From positions 1-64,000 of the forward strand of contig NZ_MBSO01000016.1 in assembly GCF_001695835.1 (NCBI RefSeq): a stretch of DNA of 64,000 nucleotides. Reading direction: 5' to 3'. Source of the DNA: Ensifer sp. LC11. Its GTDB lineage: Bacteria; Pseudomonadota; Alphaproteobacteria; Rhizobiales; Rhizobiaceae. The position numbers and the translations under genes are program-made. Below are positions 2,296 to 12,936 of this stretch, piece after piece; position 1 is the first letter of the stretch, and every line of letters begins with the position of its first letter. Below the pieces are notes generated by a model. It was not told where the DNA came from, searched no databases, and saw only the letters and a program-made list of their open reading frames with translations.

Positions 2296-2856
2296 TCAGC
2301 GCGGCGCCTCTGTCATTGCCACAAGTTGGTCCTTCAAGGCCTGGAGCTCCGCTGAACCTGACTTGGAATCGGCGGTCACGTATGAAAGCCAGGCGCCGTC
2401 TGCGGCCAATCGCACTATTTGGAGGCTTGGGTGGCCGTCCGTCACATCGTGACGTCGCAGGCGTTCGTTGAACCAGTCGATCCACCGATGACGCAAGTCG
2501 TGATCGCTGATGACGGCCATGAACAACGTCGACCATGGGGTCTCAAAACCGAACGCCTTTCCGACAAAGACAGACTTGACGTAAGCGCGTGTGAAGCTGC
2601 CGTATGGCGCGGGATCTTCAGCCATCGATGAATCTATTTCTGCATCGAGCTTATCGAGCAGAGCGTCTACCATACCCTCGAGAAGAACCTGTTTCGACGA
2701 GAAGTGGTGAAAGAGACCGCCCTTCGTAACCCCGGCCGCGTCCGCCACGGCCTGCACCGTCACCCCCGCGATTCCGTGGTCGGCGGCTATCTTGGCAGCG
2801 CATTCCAGTAGTGCGCGCTGAACCTGCTCCGGTTGTTTCTTGCGATTGTAACCCAT
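2296..2856 (-). CDS. TetR-family transcriptional repressor of the adjacent SMR efflux gene
   Basis: This 186-residue protein has a TetR N-terminal domain with the helix-turn-helix at about residues 27-50 (GVTVQAVADAAGVTKGGLFH, then HFSSKQVLL), and a helical ligand-binding C-terminal half. It starts four bases after the stop of the SMR transporter, so the two form one operon with the transporter first. A dyad upstream of the transporter is a likely binding site, giving the usual autoregulated drug-efflux arrangement. The inducer cannot be read from the sequence. The gene end lies close to the tail of the decayed LysR gene on the other strand. Confidence 0.9.
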   Translation of the reverse strand: MGYNRKKQPEQVQRALLECAAKIAADHGIAGVTVQAVADAAGVTKGGLFHHFSSKQVLLEGMVDALLDKLDAEIDSSMAEDPAPYGSFTRAYVKSVFVGKAFGFETPWSTLFMAVISDHDLRHRWIDWFNERLRRHDVTDGHPSLQIVRLAADGAWLSYVTADSKSGSAELQALKDQLVAMTEAPR

Positions 2857-2860
2857 GTGT

Positions 2861-3205
2861 TCAATGCACCGCGGTCTGCGAGAACAGGTTGATCACGAAA
2901 ACGCCCGACACGATCAGCCCAATGCCGACGACGGCGGCGAGGTCGATGGCCTGCTTGAAGACGACATAGCCCACCGCCGCGGTCAGAATGATGCCGACAC
3001 CCCCCCAGATCGCATAGGCGATGCTAAGAGGCATGGCCTTGACCGCATGCGTAAGCGAATAGAAGGATCCCGCATAGAGAACGACCATCGCGAGCGTCGG
3101 CCACGCGCGTGTGAATTGCATTGATTTCTGCAGGAACATCGTCCCGGCGACTTCCAGGGCGATCGCCAGCCCCAAGGCGAAATAGGCTGTTACAGCGGAA
3201 TTCAT
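2861..3205 (-). CDS. Small multidrug resistance (SMR/EmrE-like) efflux protein
   Basis: The 114-residue product has four predicted membrane helices and the SMR signature: Glu in AIALEVAGTMFLQKS on helix 1, then SIAYAIWGGVGI on helix 3. SMR proteins export cationic compounds as dimers in exchange for protons. The ATG at 3205 is preceded by an AAAGGGG ribosome binding site; an in-frame upstream extension exists but does not belong to the family, so the short form is preferred. It is the first gene of the SMR-tetR operon and has a dyad operator 26-47 bases upstream. Confidence 0.92.
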   Translation of the reverse strand: MNSAVTAYFALGLAIALEVAGTMFLQKSMQFTRAWPTLAMVVLYAGSFYSLTHAVKAMPLSIAYAIWGGVGIILTAAVGYVVFKQAIDLAAVVGIGLIVSGVFVINLFSQTAVH

Positions 3206-3230
3206 GACGTGCCCCTTTGATCTATAGAGA

Positions 3231-3252
3231 AAACATACCGCGCGGTTGGTTT
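3231..3252 (-). promoter_or_regulatory. Probable TetR operator upstream of the SMR-tetR operon
   Basis: A 22-base interrupted palindrome is centred on a perfect ACCGCGCGGT. Flanking AAAC and GTTT arms match each other across two mismatched pairs on each side. It lies directly upstream of the SMR start, where a repressor would block the promoter. Length and symmetry match TetR dimer sites; assignment to the adjacent regulator is inferred from position. Confidence 0.65.
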
Positions 3253-3611
3253 CTTTGCAAGCGGATTTGTCTGGCGTCAGAGCCGATCTGGGATGGGCAG
3301 CACGGCACCAGGGCAAGGCGCTGAACCGCGCGACGGGCTCCTCAAGGCCACAAACGTCGTCGGGGCATGCGAAAACCGAGCCTCCGGCGTCGCATGTGAT
3401 TGCGGCTTCCTCGGGCGTATTCCATCCGTCGTCACAAAAAGCCTCCTCAACCTGGGGCCGCCGAAACAAAGGCTGGTCGCATGTTTGGCAGGCACCACGA
3501 GCGACGGCCGCAATGAACCGGAAGGATCGGATCGATTGGCTGAACCGCGCGACGATGACGCCGTTGGAAACCGCTCCATCTCAGTCGGGACCAGGTCCAC
3601 TTTCGTTCCGG
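3253..3611. other. Intergenic region; Cys-rich minus-strand frame of doubtful status
   Basis: About 360 bases separate the SMR promoter from the end of the ATP-grasp gene. On the minus strand a frame continuous with the SMR gene contains a Cys-rich stretch (CQTCDQPLFRRP, later FACPDDVCG) resembling a small zinc-ribbon protein, but I see no convincing start or ribosome binding site. It may be a gene remnant. Nothing else was recognised. Confidence 0.35.
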
Positions 3612-4556
3612 CTATCGTTCTCCCTCCGCAAGCCAGCGGATAAGCGCAGCGGCAATTGGGGCGCCTGTGCGCGATTGGTAGTAGCTGTAGGCCGGACAAG
3701 GGTTCGCCTCGAAGCAGACGGCCTCGCCTTCCGGTGTAAGCCTGAGATCGATACCGGTAAATGGGAGGTCAAGTGCTGCGGAGAGCGCGACACAGGCCTT
3801 TTGCAGTCGGGGCTCCAGCTCAATCGAGGTCAGCTTCGCGTCGGTGCCCGACTGTCGCCCGGAATAGCGATAGTCAGTGGCCTCGCTTTCGATCCGCGTG
3901 GCAAAGACACGGCTGCCGACGACATGGACACGGACGTCGGTGCCGCGCACCTTGCGCTGGAACTGCGTCGGGCACCACCGGATACGCGAAAGCCGTGTTC
4001 GATCCGCCACCCGGAAGGTCTCGACAATGGAGCGCGTGCCGCTGACCGACTTGTAAACGACGTCGTCCCCCTCGGCTGCGCATCGATCGACGAAGTCGAC
4101 CACGGCGTCGGGATCGTTGGTCACAAGCGTTTCGGGAATACCGAAGCCGCAGCGGTGGATAATACCGGCCTGATAGGTCTTCGACATGTTCGACAACATC
4201 GCGCGCGGACGGCTGGCGATGCGGATCGACGCGGTGTTGAGCCAGTCGTACAGCAGCGAATGAAAACGAGCTGCCCTCAGTCTTTCGGGCGTGCTCGGGG
4301 GCAGGACCGCGACATCAGGCAGGTACCGTTCGTCCATCAGCCGCACATAAACGCCGTCGATCGCCTGTAAGTCGATCACCTCAGCCGCCGTCGACAACGT
4401 GCCCTGCCAGCCGGCAACGGCATCCAGCTTGAGCTGCAGCCGGGCAGAAAGATGGTCGCGCTGATCGAAGACGATGTAGGCGGCACCACTCTCCTCCGCC
4501 GCTGCAATGGCGAGCGCGACGGGCGGCTCGTGAGGTATCCCGGCGATCAAGATCAT
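3612..4556 (-). CDS. RimK/MvdD-like ATP-grasp ligase of the subtilase cassette
   Basis: This 314-residue protein has an N-terminal pre-ATP-grasp part (to about residue 120), followed by the ATP-grasp fold: SKTYQAGIIHRCGFGIPETL, the nucleotide-binding Lys in VVYKSVSG, and the metal-binding end FTGIDLRLTPEGEAVCFEAN. Family members form amide or ester bonds on peptides or small acids via acyl phosphates; graspetide ligases and RimK are the nearest comparison I can make. All catalytic elements look intact. It overlaps the preceding gene by four bases and is the last gene of the cassette, so its substrate may be one of the cassette proteins. That is inference. Confidence 0.8.
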   Translation of the reverse strand: MILIAGIPHEPPVALAIAAAEESGAAYIVFDQRDHLSARLQLKLDAVAGWQGTLSTAAEVIDLQAIDGVYVRLMDERYLPDVAVLPPSTPERLRAARFHSLLYDWLNTASIRIASRPRAMLSNMSKTYQAGIIHRCGFGIPETLVTNDPDAVVDFVDRCAAEGDDVVYKSVSGTRSIVETFRVADRTRLSRIRWCPTQFQRKVRGTDVRVHVVGSRVFATRIESEATDYRYSGRQSGTDAKLTSIELEPRLQKACVALSAALDLPFTGIDLRLTPEGEAVCFEANPCPAYSYYQSRTGAPIAAALIRWLAEGER

Positions 4557-5263
4557 GCCGACAATACCTCAGCCATGGCCCGGACAAGCGCGCGGCCACC
4601 AAGCGAGTAGTGCGGGAGGGCGGAGGCGGAAACGAAGGTGAGCTTTCCGCCCTGTCTGGCGGTTTCCACTTGCAGCAGGCGCGTGCCCCACAGATGGCCG
4701 AACTGCAGCAGCGCGTCGCGATCGCCGGCCGGCAGAATGGGGCCGATGACTTTGCCGTCAAGGACGAAATGTACCATTTGCGCGGGAGTCCGAGCGGGCA
4801 GAAACGGAGCATCCGCGTCGACACTCGCAACGGCGCAGTTTAGGCCGGCAAGCGTGGCAAGATGCAGAGCGGCGACTTCGCTGTGCCATGCGCCGGCGAG
4901 CGACTCCGGCGCCGGCGGGTTGAGCATCGGACAGGCAAGAGAGCCTAGCCAACCGAGCAGGAAGGCATGAAGCTCGGCTTCCGCATAGGCGCGATCGACG
5001 GGGGCAGCAAATTCCAGATGGGCCGTCGGCATTGTCGTCATTCGGTTGACGAGGCCGGCGACCTCGCCTGCAAGAAGCACACCGCCGTCGGCGAACTCGA
5101 AGCGGAAGCCGCCGCTGGTCGAAGGCAAGCGATGCGTGATCGAGCGCGCGCAGATGAGGCGTGTAGGCGTCAACACCTCCACCGGCATGTCCACGAGCGA
5201 CACGAGGGCGGTGCGCAGCCAAAGCGCCTCGCGGTCATCAGGGTTCGCGAGGACCAGTAACAC
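4553..5263 (-). CDS. Pre-ATP-grasp-like partner protein without an ATP-binding half
   Basis: The 236-residue product is not a clear member of a named family. Its middle (LVNRMTTMP, then LGSLACPMLNPPAPESLAGA) resembles the region just before the ATP-binding core in RimK-like ligases, where that position reads ASRPRAMLSNMSKTY in the next gene. No nucleotide-binding Lys loop or acidic metal site follows. It may be a non-catalytic or substrate-recognition partner of the ATP-grasp enzyme, whose start codon overlaps its stop. It begins 30 bases after the subtilase gene. Function is unknown. Confidence 0.6.
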   Translation of the reverse strand: MLLVLANPDDREALWLRTALVSLVDMPVEVLTPTRLICARSITHRLPSTSGGFRFEFADGGVLLAGEVAGLVNRMTTMPTAHLEFAAPVDRAYAEAELHAFLLGWLGSLACPMLNPPAPESLAGAWHSEVAALHLATLAGLNCAVASVDADAPFLPARTPAQMVHFVLDGKVIGPILPAGDRDALLQFGHLWGTRLLQVETARQGGKLTFVSASALPHYSLGGRALVRAMAEVLSA

Positions 5264-5293
5264 AGAAAGGTGCTCCTTTTGGCCGGCTCGAGT

Positions 5294-7261
5294 TCAAAAG
5301 CCCTCGGTGTCCTTCTGATCCTTTAACCGTTTGGCCTGCTCGTCGCCGCTCGCGAGACCGCTGGCATCACCGCCGAGCGCGGATGCCGAAAGGTCGGGTC
5401 TGAGCTCTGCGCCGATGAAATGGATGAGCTCCTGGACGGCGCTTTCGAGCGCTGCGATGCGGCCTTGGAGGTCACCTTCCTCGCCAGCAAAGCCGGTCGG
5501 CTGCGTCAGCCGTTCGCGAATACCGCCCCGCCCCTCGAAGATGTCTTTGTCCTTTTCTTTTCCCTCCTTGAATTCCTTGAACTCTTTGCCCTCCTTGAAC
5601 TCCTTCCGCTCCTTGCGGACGTCCTTGAGTTCCTTGACGGTTTCCTTGGCTTCCTTGCCTTCCTTGACGAACTCCTTGCCCTCCTTGCGAGTGTCCTTCA
5701 ACTCTTTGACGGATTCTTTGACTTCCTTGGCCTCCTTGACGAGTTCCTTGCTCAGTTCCTTGCTCTTGCCGAAGGCACAGACGGAGAGCTGGCGCAAGTT
5801 GGGCCGAGACCCGATGCGCTGGGAGGCAGGGCGGCCAGGCTCGTCCTGTTGGGCCGAGCCGGTGGCGCGCAGGCAATTGCGGAATTCGGCAGGCGTCAGC
5901 GGCGAACGGCCCCTTGCCCGCGCCATGCCCTGGAGCGAGGCCGCGACCCCAACGATGATCGGAGAGGCGCTCGATGTGCCGGAAAACATATCCGTGTACC
6001 AAATATCCTCGTTGGTACCGCCTTGAAGATCTCCGTAGCCCGCCGTGGTCACCTCGCGCCCCCAGCCCTGCGTATCGAAGAGAGCCCCAAAGTTCGAGAA
6101 GTCGAGACGGGACCGGTCTGCTCCATGGTTGCGGCCATGCGTACCGGGAGGTGGAGCACCGGCGCCGACGACGATCGCACCCGAGTCCCGGTTCGACCGG
6201 CGGAAGGGATTGGTCCAGCCCGCCGGGAACCCGGGTGCCGGGCTTTGGTAGATTGCGTCATCAAGGTTTTCCGCGCCGTTGCCGCCCGCTTCCACCACGA
6301 TGATGCCGCGGTTGACGGCATTGCGGATCGCCGCGAAGTCGTCGGGCCACCATTCTATGGCAATATAGCCCCGTTGGTCATTACGGCTGGCAAAGCCGAA
6401 CCGCGGTCCCGGGCGGTGTAGCTCGATGAGGATAACGTCGCCGGCGCCCAGCCGCGCGGCCGCGGCATTGATCGCTCCGGCCGAACCCATGCCACCAAAG
6501 ATGGAGATCGCGCTGACAATGGCGTCGGAAGCAATCCCGTCGATGCCGAAGGAGTTGAGGTCGCCGCTAAACTCGCCGATGACGGCCGTGCCATGATTGC
6601 GCCAACCTATGTCCGCGGACATGGTGCCGCCCACGACACCACCCTGGTTGCCGGTCAGATCTTCGTGGGTGAAACGCCAGGCGCCCTCAATGTCGATGAT
6701 GCGAATGCCGTTGCCTCGACCACCAGCCTGCGCCCATGCCCAGCGCGCCTCCACGCCTGCGGGGGCGGTTTCGAGATATCCTTGTCGAGCGGTGAAGTCG
6801 GGAGTGGATGGCGGCGCCTCCTCGCCCGAAGGTGCCATGTCGTTCAGAAGAGCGGCGGGCTCCGCGCCCGGCTTGACATAGGCCCCAGCCACGAGATCGT
6901 GCTTCGACAAGTCGGACTTCAGCGCCTCTATCTTCTCGGGCGGAGCCTCAACCGAATAGAAATTCATAAGGTCGGCGGGCTCCGCGGTGGCGGCAATACC
7001 GGCAGACTGATAGCTAAAGGCGGCGACACGCTCCTCTGTCGCGCCGAAGAGCGGACGCATGGTGGCATTGTTGTCGCTGAGAAGGCTCCTGAGTGTGTCG
7101 GTGGGCGCCCCCGAAAGAGCCTCAAAGCGGCCAGCAGAGGCTCGCATGCTCGCTTCGGGCTGCATGATGACAACAAGCTCGGGCGGCGAAGGTGGGGGAG
7201 CTGGCTTATCTCCGTCGCCATTTCCATTGCGACTGCTGGGTCTGGAAGGCCGCTTTGCCAT
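5294..7261 (-). CDS. Subtilisin-like (S8) serine peptidase with prodomain and Lys/Glu-rich tail
   Basis: A 655-residue protein. Residues 28-135 form an I9-like prodomain. The S8 domain follows with Asp190 (IIDIEG), His223 (RNHGTAV), a likely oxyanion Asn328 (AGGNG) and Ser430 (SGTSSASP), so the triad looks complete. From about 499 to 573 the chain is almost entirely Lys, Glu and a few hydrophobics, a charged helix; a short coiled-coil-like segment (LQGRIAALESAVQELIHFIG) follows. There is no signal peptide, so the protease is probably cytoplasmic, unusual for this family. A GAGGAG-type ribosome site precedes the ATG. Its neighbours are a free prodomain copy upstream and the ATP-grasp pair downstream. 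Confidence 0.88.
   Translation of the reverse strand: MAKRPSRPSSRNGNGDGDKPAPPPSPPELVVIMQPEASMRASAGRFEALSGAPTDTLRSLLSDNNATMRPLFGATEERVAAFSYQSAGIAATAEPADLMNFYSVEAPPEKIEALKSDLSKHDLVAGAYVKPGAEPAALLNDMAPSGEEAPPSTPDFTARQGYLETAPAGVEARWAWAQAGGRGNGIRIIDIEGAWRFTHEDLTGNQGGVVGGTMSADIGWRNHGTAVIGEFSGDLNSFGIDGIASDAIVSAISIFGGMGSAGAINAAAARLGAGDVILIELHRPGPRFGFASRNDQRGYIAIEWWPDDFAAIRNAVNRGIIVVEAGGNGAENLDDAIYQSPAPGFPAGWTNPFRRSNRDSGAIVVGAGAPPPGTHGRNHGADRSRLDFSNFGALFDTQGWGREVTTAGYGDLQGGTNEDIWYTDMFSGTSSASPIIVGVAASLQGMARARGRSPLTPAEFRNCLRATGSAQQDEPGRPASQRIGSRPNLRQLSVCAFGKSKELSKELVKEAKEVKESVKELKDTRKEGKEFVKEGKEAKETVKELKDVRKERKEFKEGKEFKEFKEGKEKDKDIFEGRGGIRERLTQPTGFAGEEGDLQGRIAALESAVQELIHFIGAELRPDLSASALGGDASGLASGDEQAKRLKDQKDTEGF
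5545..5768 (-). repeat. Low-complexity AAG/GAG tract encoding a charged Lys/Glu helix
   Basis: The coding strand is a run of degenerate repeats of units such as AAGGAG, so the translation cycles through KEGKEFKE- and KELKD-type units for about 75 residues of the subtilase. The alternating positive and negative pattern at i/i+4 spacing is that of single charged alpha-helices. Repeat-unit gain or loss would be expected among relatives. Confidence 0.85.
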
Positions 7262-7303
7262 TGTTCATCTCCTCATGAAGGAGGAGCGCCGGCTGCCGCT
7301 CCC

Positions 7304-7567
7304 CTATGGCAACTCGTCGGATGGCTTGATGTAAGACGCCTCCACTCCCTCAAGCGGCGCAAGCCGATTCCTGAGATCCTCAATTCTTTCGGGCCTTACG
7401 CCATCCACGCGGAAATAGAGTCGCGCTTCACCGGCGTCCTGCGCCGGCGCGACAAGTCTGGCATCGAAATCGTGCAAAATCCCAGCGATTACTTTTGGCT
7501 GGCTTCCACCAGAAGTTACCATCGCGTCCGCCGCCTCGCGATTCAATTTTATTATCAGATCAGCCAT
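7304..7567 (-). CDS. Small protein homologous to the subtilase prodomain
   Basis: This 87-residue protein begins at an ATG preceded by a strong AGGAGG eight bases upstream. Its C-terminal half (YFRVDGVRPERIEDLRNRLA, ending VEASYIKP) lines up without gaps with residues 102-131 of the next gene (FYSVEAPPEKIEALKSDLSK, ending VAGAYVKP). The N-terminal strand DLIIKLN matches ELVVIMQ. It is therefore a free-standing copy of the I9-like prodomain. It has no signal peptide. Prodomains fold and inhibit subtilases, so this could be a trans-acting inhibitor, chaperone or regulated substrate. The subtilase gene follows 42 bases downstream. Confidence 0.8.
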   Translation of the reverse strand: MADLIIKLNREAADAMVTSGGSQPKVIAGILHDFDARLVAPAQDAGEARLYFRVDGVRPERIEDLRNRLAPLEGVEASYIKPSDELP

Positions 7568-8048: not shown

Positions 8049-9071
8049 GTGACCACACGACGCGTGACAGGTCTTAAGGATGTAGCCCGAGCCGCCGGCG
8101 TTTCCGTGACGACGGTTTCGCGCCTGCTGAACGGCTCGCTCGACCTTCCCTTCGAGACGAAGAAGCGGATCTCGGACGCCATCCACGACCTCAACTATCA
8201 ACCCAACCCGCACGCCCGCCGCCTCAGCCGTGGCCGTTCCGATACGATCGGTCTTGTCGTTCCGGATATTGCCAACCCCTTTTTCGCGACGCTCGTGGCC
8301 GCGGTCGAAGAAGAAGCGGATAGCCGCGGTCTTGCCGTTTCTCTCTACGCGACACTGAACCGGGCTGGCCGCGAGGTCGCCTATCTTCAGCTTATTGAGC
8401 GCAACCACGTAGATGGCCTGATCTTCGTCACCAACCACCCGGATGACGGGCAACTCGCCACGCTGATAAACCGCACCGGCAAAGTTGTGGTTGCAGACGA
8501 AGACGTGCCAGGCGCACGGGCTCCGAAGTTGTTCTGCGACAACGAGCTAGGCGGATATCTGGCGGGCAGGCATCTGGCTGAGTTCGGGCACACAAACGTG
8601 CTGTTCGTCGGCGGCCCGGAAGAGATGATCAGTTCACGTCGGCGTCTCAACGGGCTTGAACGGGCCCTGCGGGAGGCTTTTGGCGAAAGGTCCCGACTGG
8701 CGAAATACGCAGGCGATTATACCGTCGGTTTCGGTCGGCAGGCGGCCAAGCGCTTCATCGAAGAAAATCGTCCCGCGACTGCGATCTTCGCGAGCTCGGA
8801 CGAAATTGCCATCGGCATGATCGAGGTCTTCCGTGACCAAGGCGTATCGATCCCGGACGACGTCTCGGTCGTCGGCTTCGACGATGTCGGACCGCTCCAT
8901 CTTTTCGGTCCGCCGATGACTGCCATTCGCCAGCCGGTCCGCGCGATCGGCGAACGCGCCCTTTCTTTGCTTCTCGAAACAAACTGGCAGGACAAGCAGC
9001 TTGCCACCGAAGAGCTGCTGCCAGTCGAAATCGTCGTGCGGAAATCCGTTGCTCCGCCTGCGAAACGATAA
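8049..9071 (+). CDS. LacI-family regulator of the sugar-type ABC operon
   Basis: The 340-residue protein starts at a GTG preceded by GGAGCCAAG. Residues 8-30 are the LacI helix-turn-helix (LKDVARAAGVSVTTVSRLLN), followed by the hinge (YQPNPHARRLSRGRS) and a ribose-binding-protein-like effector domain. It is the first gene of a plus-strand operon with a complete monosaccharide ABC transporter, so the inducer is probably the transported compound or a derivative. Two tandem LacI-type operators lie just upstream. Confidence 0.93.
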   Translation: MTTRRVTGLKDVARAAGVSVTTVSRLLNGSLDLPFETKKRISDAIHDLNYQPNPHARRLSRGRSDTIGLVVPDIANPFFATLVAAVEEEADSRGLAVSLYATLNRAGREVAYLQLIERNHVDGLIFVTNHPDDGQLATLINRTGKVVVADEDVPGARAPKLFCDNELGGYLAGRHLAEFGHTNVLFVGGPEEMISSRRRLNGLERALREAFGERSRLAKYAGDYTVGFGRQAAKRFIEENRPATAIFASSDEIAIGMIEVFRDQGVSIPDDVSVVGFDDVGPLHLFGPPMTAIRQPVRAIGERALSLLLETNWQDKQLATEELLPVEIVVRKSVAPPAKR

Positions 9072-9105
9072 ATCACGCAATGGAGAACCAACAGAGGATA
9101 GGAAC

Positions 9106-10062
9106 ATGAACTGGACTTTGAAACGCAGGACTTTGATTGCCACACTTGGATTTACCGCATTGACCACCCTCGGCGCGGCGCTGTCGCCGGCTCTTGCCGC
9201 CGAGAAGACGTTCGCACTCGTACAGATCAATCAGCAGGCGCTTTTCTTCAACCAGATGAACGAAGGCGCGCAGAAAGCGGCCGATGCCGCCGGCGCGAAG
9301 CTCGTCATCTTCAACGCCAATAACGATCCGGCCGCGCAGAACAGCGCGATCGAGACCTATATCCAGCAAAAGGTCGATGGCATCGCGGTCGTTGCAATCG
9401 ACGTCAACGGCATCATGCCTGCGGTCAACCAGGCGGCCGAAGCCGGCATCCCCGTCGTTGCAATCGATGCGATCCTTCCGGAAGGCCCGCAGAAGGCGCA
9501 AATCGGCGTCGATAACGCCACTGCGGGTGCCGACATGGGCAAGTTCTTCCTCGACTACATCAAGGCCAACGCATCAGGCAAAGCCAAGATCGGTGTCGTC
9601 GGTGCGCTCAACTCCTTCATCCAGAACGTTCGCCAGGAGGGATTTGAAAAGACCATCAAGGACGTCGACGGCATCAGCGCGGCCGGCGTCGTCGATGGAC
9701 AGAACGTGCAGGACAACGCGCTTGCCGCAGCCGAGAACCTGATTACCGGCAATCCGGACCTGACCGCCATCTATGCGACCGGCGAACCGGCCCTGATGGG
9801 CGCCATCGCCGCTGTCGAAAGCCAGAGCAAGCAGGATAGCGTCAAGGTGTTTGGCTGGGACCTGACGGCCCAGGCGATCGCAGGCATTGATGCCGGCTAC
9901 GTCACCGCCGTGATCCAGCAGGATCCGGCTGCGATGGGCGCGGCTGCCGTCGACGCTTTGAAGAAGGTCTCTGACGGTGGCAGCGTCGAGAAGAGCATCG
10001 CCGTGCCGGTAACGATCGTCACCAAGGACAACGTCGAGCCATACCGGGCGATCTTCAAATGA
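9106..10062 (+). CDS. Periplasmic sugar-binding protein, RbsB/FrcB-like
   Basis: A 318-residue product with a signal peptide (basic MNWTLKRR, hydrophobic core, cleavage near ALAAEK) and the periplasmic binding protein 4 fold: FFNQMNEGAQKAADAAGAKL, then VVAIDAI and GWDLTAQAIAGI. Such proteins bind pentoses, hexoses or nucleoside-like sugars for an ABC importer. The ATG at 9106 is chosen because the signal peptide begins there and an AGGATAGGA ribosome site precedes it. The stop overlaps the start of the ATPase gene. Confidence 0.92.
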   Translation: MNWTLKRRTLIATLGFTALTTLGAALSPALAAEKTFALVQINQQALFFNQMNEGAQKAADAAGAKLVIFNANNDPAAQNSAIETYIQQKVDGIAVVAIDVNGIMPAVNQAAEAGIPVVAIDAILPEGPQKAQIGVDNATAGADMGKFFLDYIKANASGKAKIGVVGALNSFIQNVRQEGFEKTIKDVDGISAAGVVDGQNVQDNALAAAENLITGNPDLTAIYATGEPALMGAIAAVESQSKQDSVKVFGWDLTAQAIAGIDAGYVTAVIQQDPAAMGAAAVDALKKVSDGGSVEKSIAVPVTIVTKDNVEPYRAIFK

Positions 10063-10865
10063 TGACGACTGAAAGACAGCATCCTCCCGCTGTCGCTGGT
10101 GTCGGGGGGGCTTTGCCCTCCCGCACCGGTGCCAGTCCCCGCGTTTCCCTCAAGGGGATCGTCAAGACGTTTGGTTCGCACCAGGCACTGCGTGGGGTAG
10201 ACCTGGACATCTATCCTGGTGAATGCCTTGGCCTGGTCGGCGACAACGCCGCCGGCAAATCGACGCTGACCAAGATCATCTCGGGAACCTATATTCCAGA
10301 TGGCGGAACGATCACCCTGGAAGGTGAAGAGGTCCGCTTCTCGGGGCCCGCGGACGCCCGCAACCGCCAGATCGAAATGGTCTTCCAGGACCTGAGCCTC
10401 TGCGATCACATCGATGTGGTGGGCAATCTGTTTCTTGGTCGTGAAATCAGCAGGGGACCATTTCTCGATACGAAAACCATGCTGGCCGAAGCGCGCAAGA
10501 TGCTCGATGCGCTGGAGATCCGCATTCCGCGGCTCACCGGCAAGGTCGCCCAGCTCTCCGGCGGCCAGCGTCAGGCCATCGCGATTGCCCGCGCCGCTTC
10601 GTTCAACCCGAAAGTCCTGATCATGGACGAGCCTACCTCGGCGCTTGCCGTGGCGGAGGTCGAAGCCGTGCTCGCGCTTATCAACCGCGTCAAGGCCAAG
10701 GGGGTATCGGTCATCCTGATCACGCATCGCCTCCAGGACCTGTTCCGGGTCTGCGACCGCATTGCCGTCATGTATGAGGGCACCAAGGTCGCCGAGCGCG
10801 AAATCGGCAAGACCAACCTGGAAGACCTCGTCAAGCTGATCGTCGGGGAAGGAGCCAAGCAATGA
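10059..10865 (+). CDS. Sugar ABC transporter ATP-binding protein, FrcA-like
   Basis: The 268-residue protein has a single ATPase domain: Walker A GDNAAGKST at 61-69, signature LSGGQ at 166-170, Walker B VLIMDEPTSA at 186-195, and the switch His in LITHRL. Single-domain ATPases of this type (FrcA) form homodimers, unlike the double-domain RbsA. The first 28 residues (Pro/Gly-rich) are a short extension. It overlaps both the binding-protein and permease genes by four bases, indicating translational coupling. Confidence 0.92.
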   Translation: MMTTERQHPPAVAGVGGALPSRTGASPRVSLKGIVKTFGSHQALRGVDLDIYPGECLGLVGDNAAGKSTLTKIISGTYIPDGGTITLEGEEVRFSGPADARNRQIEMVFQDLSLCDHIDVVGNLFLGREISRGPFLDTKTMLAEARKMLDALEIRIPRLTGKVAQLSGGQRQAIAIARAASFNPKVLIMDEPTSALAVAEVEAVLALINRVKAKGVSVILITHRLQDLFRVCDRIAVMYEGTKVAEREIGKTNLEDLVKLIVGEGAKQ

Positions 10866-11863
10866 CGGCCTATACCGAACGCGCAAAAGGCTCGCCGGCG
10901 GCAGACTTCCTGTCGGAAAATGCACAGGTTCTGTCGATCGCCTTCTTCTTCCTGGCCTGTGTCGTCTTCTTCGCGGCCACGACCGACACGTTCATGACGC
11001 TCGGCAATATCCTGAACGTCATCCGCCAGGCAGCCCCAATCCTCATCGTCGCGGTTGCCATGACACTTGTGATCATCACCGGCGGCATCGATCTCTCGGT
11101 CGGCTCGCAGGTCGCACTGGTCAATGCTGTCGCGGCGATCGTTTTGGCGATGGGCTATCCCTGGCCTGTCGTCGTCGTCGCGATGCTCTTTTTCGGCGCC
11201 TTCCTCGGCTTCGTGCAGGGATGGTTCACAGCCTACCAGGGCATTCCGGCGTTCATCGTCACGCTTGCCGGCCTGTCCATCCTGCGCGGGCTCGCGCTCT
11301 ATCTGACGCAGGGCTATTCGATCCCGATCAAGGACGCCCCGGGATTTTTTGCGCTTGGCCGCGGTGAATTGTTCGGTGTTCCCATGCCGGCCCTGATCGC
11401 TGTTGCGGTCGCGGTGCTCGGCTATGTCGTCATATCCTCGACCAAGTACGGCCGCCAGGTCGTCGCCGTCGGCTCCAACATGGAAGCCGCCCGCCGCGTT
11501 GGCATGCCGGCAAGATGGGTGATCGCTTCGGTCTACATGATCGCAGGCGTGGCCTGCGCGCTCGCCGGCCTGCTGATCGCCGCGCGTCTCGGTTCCGGTT
11601 CGTCGAATGCGGCAGTCGGCTTCGAGCTACAGGTCATCGCCGCGGTGGTGCTTGGCGGAACGTCGCTGATGGGCGGCCGCGGCACGATCCTCGGCACCGT
11701 GCTTGGCACCATGACGATCGCGGTGATCGGCAACGGCCTGATCCTGATGCATATCTCGCCGTTCTTCACGCAGATCGTTACCGGCGCGATCATTCTCGTC
11801 GCGATCTGGCTCAACACCCGGATCTTCACCGCCAACTTTCGCCTCGGCGGCAAGAAGAGATAG
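10862..11863 (+). CDS. Sugar ABC transporter permease, RbsC/FrcC-like
   Basis: A 333-residue membrane protein of the BPD_transp_2 family, with 8-10 hydrophobic helices and the family motif ITGGIDLSVGS, plus the cytoplasmic coupling region GSNMEAARRVGMPAR and the glycine-rich GGTSLMGGRGTI. It would form a homodimeric channel with the preceding ATPase and binding protein. The start overlaps the stop of the ATPase gene (ATGA). Confidence 0.92.
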   Translation: MTAYTERAKGSPAADFLSENAQVLSIAFFFLACVVFFAATTDTFMTLGNILNVIRQAAPILIVAVAMTLVIITGGIDLSVGSQVALVNAVAAIVLAMGYPWPVVVVAMLFFGAFLGFVQGWFTAYQGIPAFIVTLAGLSILRGLALYLTQGYSIPIKDAPGFFALGRGELFGVPMPALIAVAVAVLGYVVISSTKYGRQVVAVGSNMEAARRVGMPARWVIASVYMIAGVACALAGLLIAARLGSGSSNAAVGFELQVIAAVVLGGTSLMGGRGTILGTVLGTMTIAVIGNGLILMHISPFFTQIVTGAIILVAIWLNTRIFTANFRLGGKKR

Positions 11864-11868
11864 CCGTC

Positions 11869-12936
11869 ATGACCCAGGAACTGTCTGAAGCGCACGTGCG
11901 ATCCGGCAAGGTGATGACGGTCAACGGGGCGATCGACGCGGATCTGCTTGGCATCACGCTGATGCACGAGCACATCCTCAACGATTGCCGCTGCTGGTGG
12001 AACGCGCCGCAAACCAAGGAGCGTCAGTATCTCGCCGAAGGTTTTGTCTGCATGGAAATCCTCGGCGAGCTCCGCCAGGATCCCTTCGTCAACGAGCACA
12101 ACATCACGCTGGACGACGAACCGCTGGCAATTGCCGAGTTGAAAGCCTTCGTCGCCGAAGGGGGACGCACGGTCGTCGAGCCCACCTGCAAGGGTATCGG
12201 GAGAAATCCGCTCGCGCTGCGACGGATTTCCGGGGCGACCGGCCTCAACATCGTGATGGGTGCGGGATACTACCTCGCCTCCTCCCACCCGGCCGAGGTC
12301 GCAGGGATGAGCGTCGACCAGATTGCCGACGGCATCGTCCGCGAGGCTGTTGAAGGTGCCGACGGCACGGACGTGAAAATCGGCCTGATCGGGGAGATCG
12401 GCGTCTCCTCGGATTTCACTGCGGCGGAGGAAAAGTCGCTGCGTGGGGCCGCACGGGCGCAGGTTCGGACCGGCTTGCCGCTTATGGTGCATCTGCCCGG
12501 TTGGTTCCGGCTCGGCCACCGTGTGCTCGACGTCGTCGCCGAGGAGGGCGCGGATCTCCGCCACACCGTGCTTTGCCACATGAACCCGTCGCACGACGAC
12601 TTCGCCTACCAAAGCGAACTCGCCGCACGCGGGGCGTTCATCGAGTACGACATGATCGGCATGGACTTCTTCTACGCCGATCAACAGGTGCAATGCCCGA
12701 GCGACGAAGAGGCTGCGCGGGCGATCGCACGGCTGGTGGACGCCGGTCACATCGACCGCATCCTGCTTTCGCACGACGTGTTCCTGAAGATGATGCTCAG
12801 CCACTATGGAGGCAACGGCTATGCCTATGTCCTGCGCCATTTCCTGCCGCGCCTCAAACGACACGGACTGAACGACGCTGCGCTCGACCGCATGATGCGG
12901 GGCAATCCCCGCTCGGTATTCCAAACCGGGGCCTGA
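11869..12936 (+). CDS. Phosphotriesterase-family metal hydrolase (Php-like)
   Basis: The 355-residue protein has the amidohydrolase TIM-barrel pattern: MHEH near residue 33, a Glu in GLIGEIG where true phosphotriesterase has the carboxylated Lys, VHLPG, CHMNPSHDD, and LLSHDVF with the final metal Asp. The Glu at the bridging position is typical of the Php subgroup, many of which are lactonases or esterases rather than pesticide hydrolases. The ATG at 11869 follows the permease stop by five bases; longer in-frame extensions overlap the permease and are rejected. Probably acts on the imported compound or its phosphorylated lactone. Confidence 0.88.
   Translation: MTQELSEAHVRSGKVMTVNGAIDADLLGITLMHEHILNDCRCWWNAPQTKERQYLAEGFVCMEILGELRQDPFVNEHNITLDDEPLAIAELKAFVAEGGRTVVEPTCKGIGRNPLALRRISGATGLNIVMGAGYYLASSHPAEVAGMSVDQIADGIVREAVEGADGTDVKIGLIGEIGVSSDFTAAEEKSLRGAARAQVRTGLPLMVHLPGWFRLGHRVLDVVAEEGADLRHTVLCHMNPSHDDFAYQSELAARGAFIEYDMIGMDFFYADQQVQCPSDEEAARAIARLVDAGHIDRILLSHDVFLKMMLSHYGGNGYAYVLRHFLPRLKRHGLNDAALDRMMRGNPRSVFQTGA

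Follow-up and report, generated by a model that had tools for sequence, protein, structure and literature searches.

A lysine- and glutamate-rich protease tail as candidate substrate of a graspetide-type ligase in Ensifer sp. LC11 and distant hosts

The locus and its closest described systems

In the survey of ATP-grasp ligases by Makarova et al. 2022 (PMC8939145), no precursors were predictable for branches 7 and 8. As described in the parts of that survey dealing with them, several unrelated peptidase families are represented in the loci of these branches, a truncated, inactive ATP-grasp protein is typical of branch 8, and the precursors were suggested to be encoded elsewhere; a Phhx(1,2)h leader motif is given there for about half of the precursors, and known graspetides are said to inhibit proteases. 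The main text of Carter et al. 2026 (PMC13097080) describes partner-dependent synthetases and KxxxD isopeptide repeats, with diverse neighbouring proteases in graspetide group 32 and long repetitive precursors in groups 34 and 35. Activity was retained when a leader was relocated to the C-terminus (Johnson et al. 2026, PMC13003496), and whole proteins were cyclised by a graspetide synthetase (Choi et al. 2025, PMC12291112). We studied a stretch of 64,000 nucleotides from Ensifer sp. LC11 (assembly GCF_001695835.1, contig NZ_MBSO01000016.1, positions 1-64,000 of the forward strand; hereafter the window), in which four genes, A to D, encode a small protein, a subtilase with a charged C-terminal tail, a truncated ATP-grasp paralogue and an ATP-grasp ligase, respectively. 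The tail with its C-terminal motif, C and D form a conserved unit, and the tail is quite likely the substrate of the ligase.

By gene content as described in the survey (PMC8939145), the loci studied here match its branch 8, a described but unexplained class: the ligase stands beside peptidases of several unrelated families and a truncated, inactive ATP-grasp partner. An earlier reading of the window from its sequence only had not matched the system to a named one. Unlike in the branch 8 account (PMC8939145, same parts), a peptidase tail or a stand-alone tail protein would here fill the place of the precursor.

The four genes are tightly spaced on the minus strand, with gaps of 42 bases between A and B and 30 bases between B and C, and a 4-base overlap of C and D; re-reading of the open reading frames (ORFs) confirmed the positions, lengths, gaps and overlap given by the sequence-only reading. 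The tail of B and the motif that follows it, absent from that reading, are central here. The features are as follows (HMM, hidden Markov model).

A: 7304-7567, minus strand; 87 residues if counted from the ATG at 7567, within a longer listed ORF; free paralogue of the N-terminal domain of B, going with the subtilase subtype and not with the ligase unit (BLASTP, A HMM, neighbourhood)
B: 5294-7261, minus strand; 655 residues, subtilase with a C-terminal Lys/Glu tail (PF00082 above cut-off, triad invariant)
B residues 28-135: 6857-7180, minus strand; N-terminal domain related to A (BLASTP, A HMM)
B residues 219-468: 5858-6607, minus strand; Pfam-matched part of the S8 catalytic domain
B residues 486-597: 5471-5806, minus strand; Lys/Glu repeat, presumed ligase substrate (composition)
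B residues 598-630: 5372-5470, minus strand; conserved 33-residue C-terminal motif, presumed recognition element
C: 4553-5263, minus strand; 236 residues, GTG start; truncated graspetide-synthetase paralogue, presumed partner of D
D: 3612-4556, minus strand; 314 residues, ATP-grasp ligase of graspetide-synthetase type
D residues 228-231: 3864-3875, minus strand; DYRY motif, aligned with DFR of PsnB and present in 38/38 D proteins

Distribution of the tail, C and D

A scan of genome contigs seeded with three D proteins, in which the tail was not used as a seed, gave 39 loci, and in 38 of them the tail motif was found in the ORF directly before C and D. Two of these (L050 in genome G057 and L054 in genome G029; L and G numbers are our labels for loci and genomes) come from two of the three genomes behind the query, so that 36 tail loci of the scan are new; the motif, C and D HMMs were iterated on the same loci in which they were counted. 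The hosts of the D-seeded loci belong to ten phyla, one of them archaeal. The exception, L063 from Nostoc, has two long ATP-grasp proteins. At this locus (2554-4928, Nostoc sp. UCD121) the D relative bears a C-terminal PqqD-like domain, and the long degenerate ATP-grasp paralogue preceding it could represent an earlier stage of C.

Counting the window and the 38 scan loci, the tail was fused to an S8 subtilase in 9/39 loci, to a trypsin/Nal1-like protease in 13/39, to an M6 metalloprotease in 7/39 and to an astacin in 1/39, and stood alone, without a Pfam match, in 9/39; the stand-alone protein of L035, for example, has 138 residues. Pfam cut-offs were exceeded by eight of the nine S8 members (not by L028), by all seven M6 members and by the astacin (M12A); the trypsin-like class is based on a GDSG-type motif in 13/13 members together with weak Nal1, S7 or S32 matches, only L038, L055, L058 and L061 exceeding a Pfam cut-off and L047 equalling one. 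By a crude test of hydrophobicity, 38 of the 39 tail proteins lack a signal-like N-terminus (several starts are uncertain and L042 is partial), and the sole signal-like one, in L055, belongs to an over-extended ORF. The first clue to the tail was the M6 metalloprotease of G057, which has a DKR-repeat tail and the same motif, followed by C and D. A subtilase of genome G067, 61% identical to B over residues 27-497, is without tail, C and D.

In a tree of 38 D proteins the distribution of the five classes takes 10 changes to explain, where the minimum is 4 and shuffling gives 21; the well-supported branches alone force at least 2 changes for S8 and 2 for the trypsin-like class, the number of changes being unsure because the backbone of the tree is weak. 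Whereas the protease type is exchanged, the tail remains next to C and D, and its belonging with them is well supported. The conserved unit is the tail with its motif plus C and D, and not the four-gene cassette proposed by the sequence-only reading: C and D occur otherwise with other proteases or with none, and A and B also without C and D (L016). The protease-ligase modification system suspected there is well supported, with the protease tail and not the small protein as its likely target; rare co-occurrence of the four genes, named in that reading as an argument against it, is seen in part, A being found only beside subtilases (in 8/9 subtilase-type loci) and C and D also with other proteases. 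That one tail-plus-ligase unit recurs on unrelated proteases hints at the place of the ligase substrate that had been missing.

A different role for the peptidase was proposed for branches 7 and 8 in the same parts of Makarova et al. 2022 (PMC8939145): it would supply peptides to the ligase. Applied here, these would be cut from other cellular proteins and the tail would be only a docking or coiled-coil segment; the motif could be read as a docking helix. We consider this unlikely, since in nine of the 39 tail loci the tail protein lacks a protease domain, metallo- and serine proteases have only the tail in common, and Lys and acidic residues are conserved above the other tail residues (see below).

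Control loci were inspected for the same elements. The subtilase controls, 16 stretches (L004-L014 and L016-L020) from 5 genomes and 6 of 16 plasmid records, comprised 11 distinct subtilase places without D, and these had neither tail nor C; in L014 just an N-terminal fragment of B is present, and the missing tail there says little. Eight other ATP-grasp loci (8 of 30 listed rows), four with an annotated precursor tgmA, had no tail and no separate C. A plasmid search with C gave no match, and the C profile matched 3/397 genomes of the order; tail and D are present in all three, whose C sequences were already part of the profile.

A profile of the motif found matches in 35 of the 37 host genomes, once in 33; G572 had one strong and one weak match, G588 two strong matches on two contigs, and the genomes of L060 and L063 none. 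One strong copy was present in 34/37. A query with 36 residues of the motif gave one match each in G000, G029 and G057 and none in G067. Substrates elsewhere in the genome were considered, and the profile matches mostly once per host genome. In a sample of 398 genomes of the phylum the only strong match was in G000, and 18 other genomes had weak, partial ones (E 4e-5 to 8e-3), which are not proven to be chance because genuine members had E-values as weak as 1e-5 and another went undetected. The one inspected of these 18, L069 (G413:C213:288-374, E 4.2e-5), terminates a Glu/Ala-rich ORF that the contig start truncates, and it may be a distant tail without Lys.

The surroundings vary. The window has, flanking A-D on the opposite strand (8049-12936, assigned by eye), a LacI-type regulator, a sugar-type ABC transporter and a phosphotriesterase-like protein. 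Fifteen congeners showed no match to the A-D cassette beyond one 42-base stretch in G795; the LacI-type gene is common to 5 of the 15 at 86-88%, without the cassette, and its retention where the cassette is missing indicates that the presence of the cassette is patchy. Upstream of the G029 cassette (L015, 4373-6208), a 611-residue ORF joins, by eye, an SGNH hydrolase to a caspase-like domain. At L049 (14693-14869) a second short D-like fragment lies at the edge of the stretch. A role in defence, raised by the sequence-only reading, found no backing: PADLOC 2.0.0 gave no match for A, C or D and a weak LmuB match on the B tail (E 0.052) that is likely due to composition, a pattern-based scan of viral contigs confirmed no relative of D, and a phage set gave no more than partial matches to B, in 4 records. 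The reading as a defence or phage system was rejected as unsupported.

The proteins of the locus

B is a subtilase (PF00082, 40.4 bits against a Pfam cut-off of 21.8) in which the presumed triad D190, H223 and S430 is invariant in 7/7 aligned B proteins, and a crude test found no hydrophobic stretch at its N-terminus; these results agree with the full-triad S8 protease without a signal peptide expected from sequence. The AlphaFold model of B residues 1-500 was poor overall (mean predicted local distance difference test score, pLDDT, 47.8). In the tail (residues 486-597) there are 24 Lys, 8 Arg, 23 Glu and 5 Asp among 112 residues. Relatives of B without a tail, C or D occur on plasmids of Nostoc commune (L009, 63% identical) and of the archaeon Haloferax mediterranei (L010, 54%), and they point to spread between domains.

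In a two-sequence BLASTP search, A aligned with B residues 1-150 over 66 residues (E 4e-5), and no Pfam family, I9 included, matched A at E up to 1. The A HMM was iterated on the same loci and included N-domains of B, so that its E-values for B are circular and the BLASTP value is the independent figure. By this HMM and neighbourhood, a relative of A accompanies B in 8 of the 9 subtilase-type loci, upstream of B in the window, L026, L027, L028, L029, L054 and L062 and on the opposite strand in L060; in the ninth (L042) B is cut by the contig edge. A also occurs with B at L016 and with an N-terminal piece of B at L014, both without C and D, and the HMM found no relative of A in the M6, trypsin-like, astacin or stand-alone tail loci. 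A pairs with the subtilase and not with the ligase unit. That A itself might be the peptide substrate of the ligase, as its place in the same apparent operon would allow, is very improbable, because A was found only beside subtilases, even where C and D are missing (L016, L014), and is not found with the other tail classes; A as ligase substrate was rejected since it tracks the subtilase.

Two control loci showed further arrangements. In L014 (7606-11562, plasmid pRlX5 of Rhizobium johnstonii) the relative of A and a 148-residue N-terminal piece of B, 65% identical, precede a SIR2 family protein and an ATP-binding protein; C and D are absent. In L012 (5623-9089, plasmid of Paenibacillus sp. 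37) two S8 proteases and a trypsin-like protease are adjacent, and the A HMM also matches a separate 171-residue ORF immediately upstream of the second S8 protease.

D matches RimK (PF08443) at 30.5 bits, above the Pfam cut-off of 21, in support of its earlier assignment as an ATP-grasp ligase, and DYRY and E-x-N are retained in 38/38 D proteins. It scores 50.9 bits with TIGR00768 (rimK_fam), below the cut-off of 143.4. For structure comparison a profile of three D proteins was used: PsnB (plesiocin synthetase, 7drm) aligned with it nearly full length (positions 2-308, E 1.4e-32), five other graspetide-type ligase chains matched at 1e-23 to 5e-21, and RimK matched only over residues 124-309 (3e-13). 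These values bear on whether D could be a RimK-like amino acid ligase adding Glu or other residues to the tail. RimK glutamate ligases share the ATP-grasp domain with D, and both the Pfam score and the RimK structures would fit, but graspetide synthetases match far better, the pre-ATP-grasp part included, and addition to acids would leave the strong retention of Lys unexplained, which makes such an activity rather improbable.

C had no match in Pfam or NCBIfam. Its profile aligned with that of D (39 C and 38 D proteins, hhalign) at E 4.9e-14 over 244 columns, with long gaps opposite the ATP-grasp core of D, and in the same alignment the DYRY and E-x-N of D had no counterpart in the C of the window. 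The AlphaFold model of C had a mean pLDDT of 94.6, and in Foldseek its 32 best PDB chains were all PruB, MdnB, MdnC, AMdnB, PsnB or a Chryseobacterium ligase associated with a ribosomally synthesized and post-translationally modified peptide (RiPP), LysX and RimK ranking after them; PruB we take to be a graspetide synthetase. C is a truncated paralogue of D that lost the ATP-grasp core, and the name "pre-ATP-grasp protein" given to it from sequence was right.

The tail as a candidate ligase substrate

Tail composition was examined over the 100 residues preceding the motif (n = 38; L028, which has no Lys there, was excluded); a first count had used core limits set by Lys density, and the fixed windows are fairer. 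The median K/(K+R) was 0.86, with 7 tails free of Arg, and that of D itself was <0.5 in 36/38. The acid/Lys ratio had a median of 1.15 (standard deviation 0.15). Ser and Thr together made up 6 per 100 residues, and with these so scarce a graspetide bond in the tail would mostly be an amide. In 7/7 pairs of related tails Lys and acids were conserved more than other residues. Summing both directions and taking Glu/Asp as one class, the residues kept (Lys, acids, others) were:

window/L026: 48/48, 54/55, 68/106
L055/L058: 38/38, 42/42, 94/100
L056/L061: 40/41, 42/42, 100/104
L055/L057: 28/31, 32/37, 44/93
L026/L027: 42/45, 44/51, 54/109
L030/L034: 60/74, 62/80, 96/219
L045/L046: 26/38, 28/42, 28/89

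From homology, composition and gene order we consider it fairly probable that B, besides being an enzyme, serves as substrate of the adjacent ligase, D with C forming amides between Lys and Glu/Asp side chains of the tail. D, predicted to be an active graspetide-type ligase, would work with C, probably as a D-C pair; we infer that C is its essential partner, and the roles of the motif and of A are inferred in the same way. The pair would bind the C-terminal motif as a follower instead of the usual N-terminal leader, Glu/Asp side chains would be activated as acyl phosphates and joined to Lys side chains of the repeat, and the protease would end up with a tail stapled by multiple isopeptide cross-links. 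The probable target of A is the subtilase, which it would inhibit in the manner of a prodomain or help to fold. The bond itself would probably be an intramolecular Lys-acid amide. The same chemistry would also serve to link the tails of separate molecules into isopeptide-bonded protease polymers or conjugates, and the sequence forbids nothing of the kind; the 19 tails inspected have no conserved single conjugation site or conserved C-terminus, and the characterised graspetide linkages in the cited papers, as far as described there, are intramolecular, so we regard such linking as improbable.

Several points weigh against stapling of the tail by D and C. The amide chemistry is a prediction from sequence. 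D scores 134 bits (E 5.6e-39) with the curated maturase model TIGR04187, below its cut-off of 350, and three further D proteins score 112-136 bits. Acids are enriched relative to Lys at +1, +4, +5, +7, -2 and -5 among other offsets, so that cross-link partners are not readable. Lys aligns easily with Lys in repeats, and the low-complexity tails could be plain charged helices. By eye the motif contains no obvious Phhx(1,2)h, that of L060 is divergent and was missed by the genome search, and L028 has the motif with no Lys in the preceding 100 residues. In L028 (1769-3109) the subtilase ORF jumps from the middle of the catalytic domain directly to the motif, maybe by a deletion or an assembly error over repeats.

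The stapled-tail reading shares with graspetides (microviridin, plesiocin, corallotide, rosaritide) the homology of the synthetase, which for PsnB extends over nearly the full length, and the availability of Lys donors and Glu/Asp acceptors; known graspetide pathways include synthetases that depend on a partner, and repeats with isopeptide bonds between Lys and Asp (PMC13097080, main text). Unlike in graspetides, the presumed substrate is part of a full-size enzyme in 30/39 loci, the recognition motif is C-terminal and, by the crude test, there is no signal-like N-terminus; in place of a small precursor with an N-terminal leader, the locus has protease-fused tails with the motif at the C-terminal side. 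By the main text of Carter et al. 2026 (PMC13097080), group 32 resembles the unit in its diverse neighbouring proteases, and groups 34 and 35 in their long repetitive precursors; fusion, as in the tails described here, is not mentioned in that text ("fused" has 0 occurrences). No protease-fused graspetide precursor is described in the literature surveyed, mostly titles and abstract openings, and one may exist elsewhere.

We lean slightly towards the view that full-size proteases from several unrelated families, found in bacteria as well as in one archaeon, are natural graspetide precursors with isopeptide-stapled tails, and thus towards a portable modification of protein tails and not a natural-product pathway. 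As a guess, the modified tail may be a protease-resistant stalk or a regulatory arm. Since known graspetides inhibit proteases (PMC8939145, as cited above), control in cis would suit; with stand-alone tails and metalloproteases among the loci, a broader function such as that of a protease-resistant stalk is favoured.

The locus class, branch 8, has already been described (PMC8939145), and what is proposed here is the tail as its precursor, which offers a concrete and testable answer to what branch 8-type ligases act on, left open in the survey as described there. The tail would represent a natural equivalent both of the leader engineered at the C-terminus (PMC13003496) and of protein cyclisation by a graspetide synthetase (PMC12291112). 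Should this hold, whole enzymes would be decorated by graspetide chemistry, and a tool for stapling protein tails could be made from the tail, C and D.
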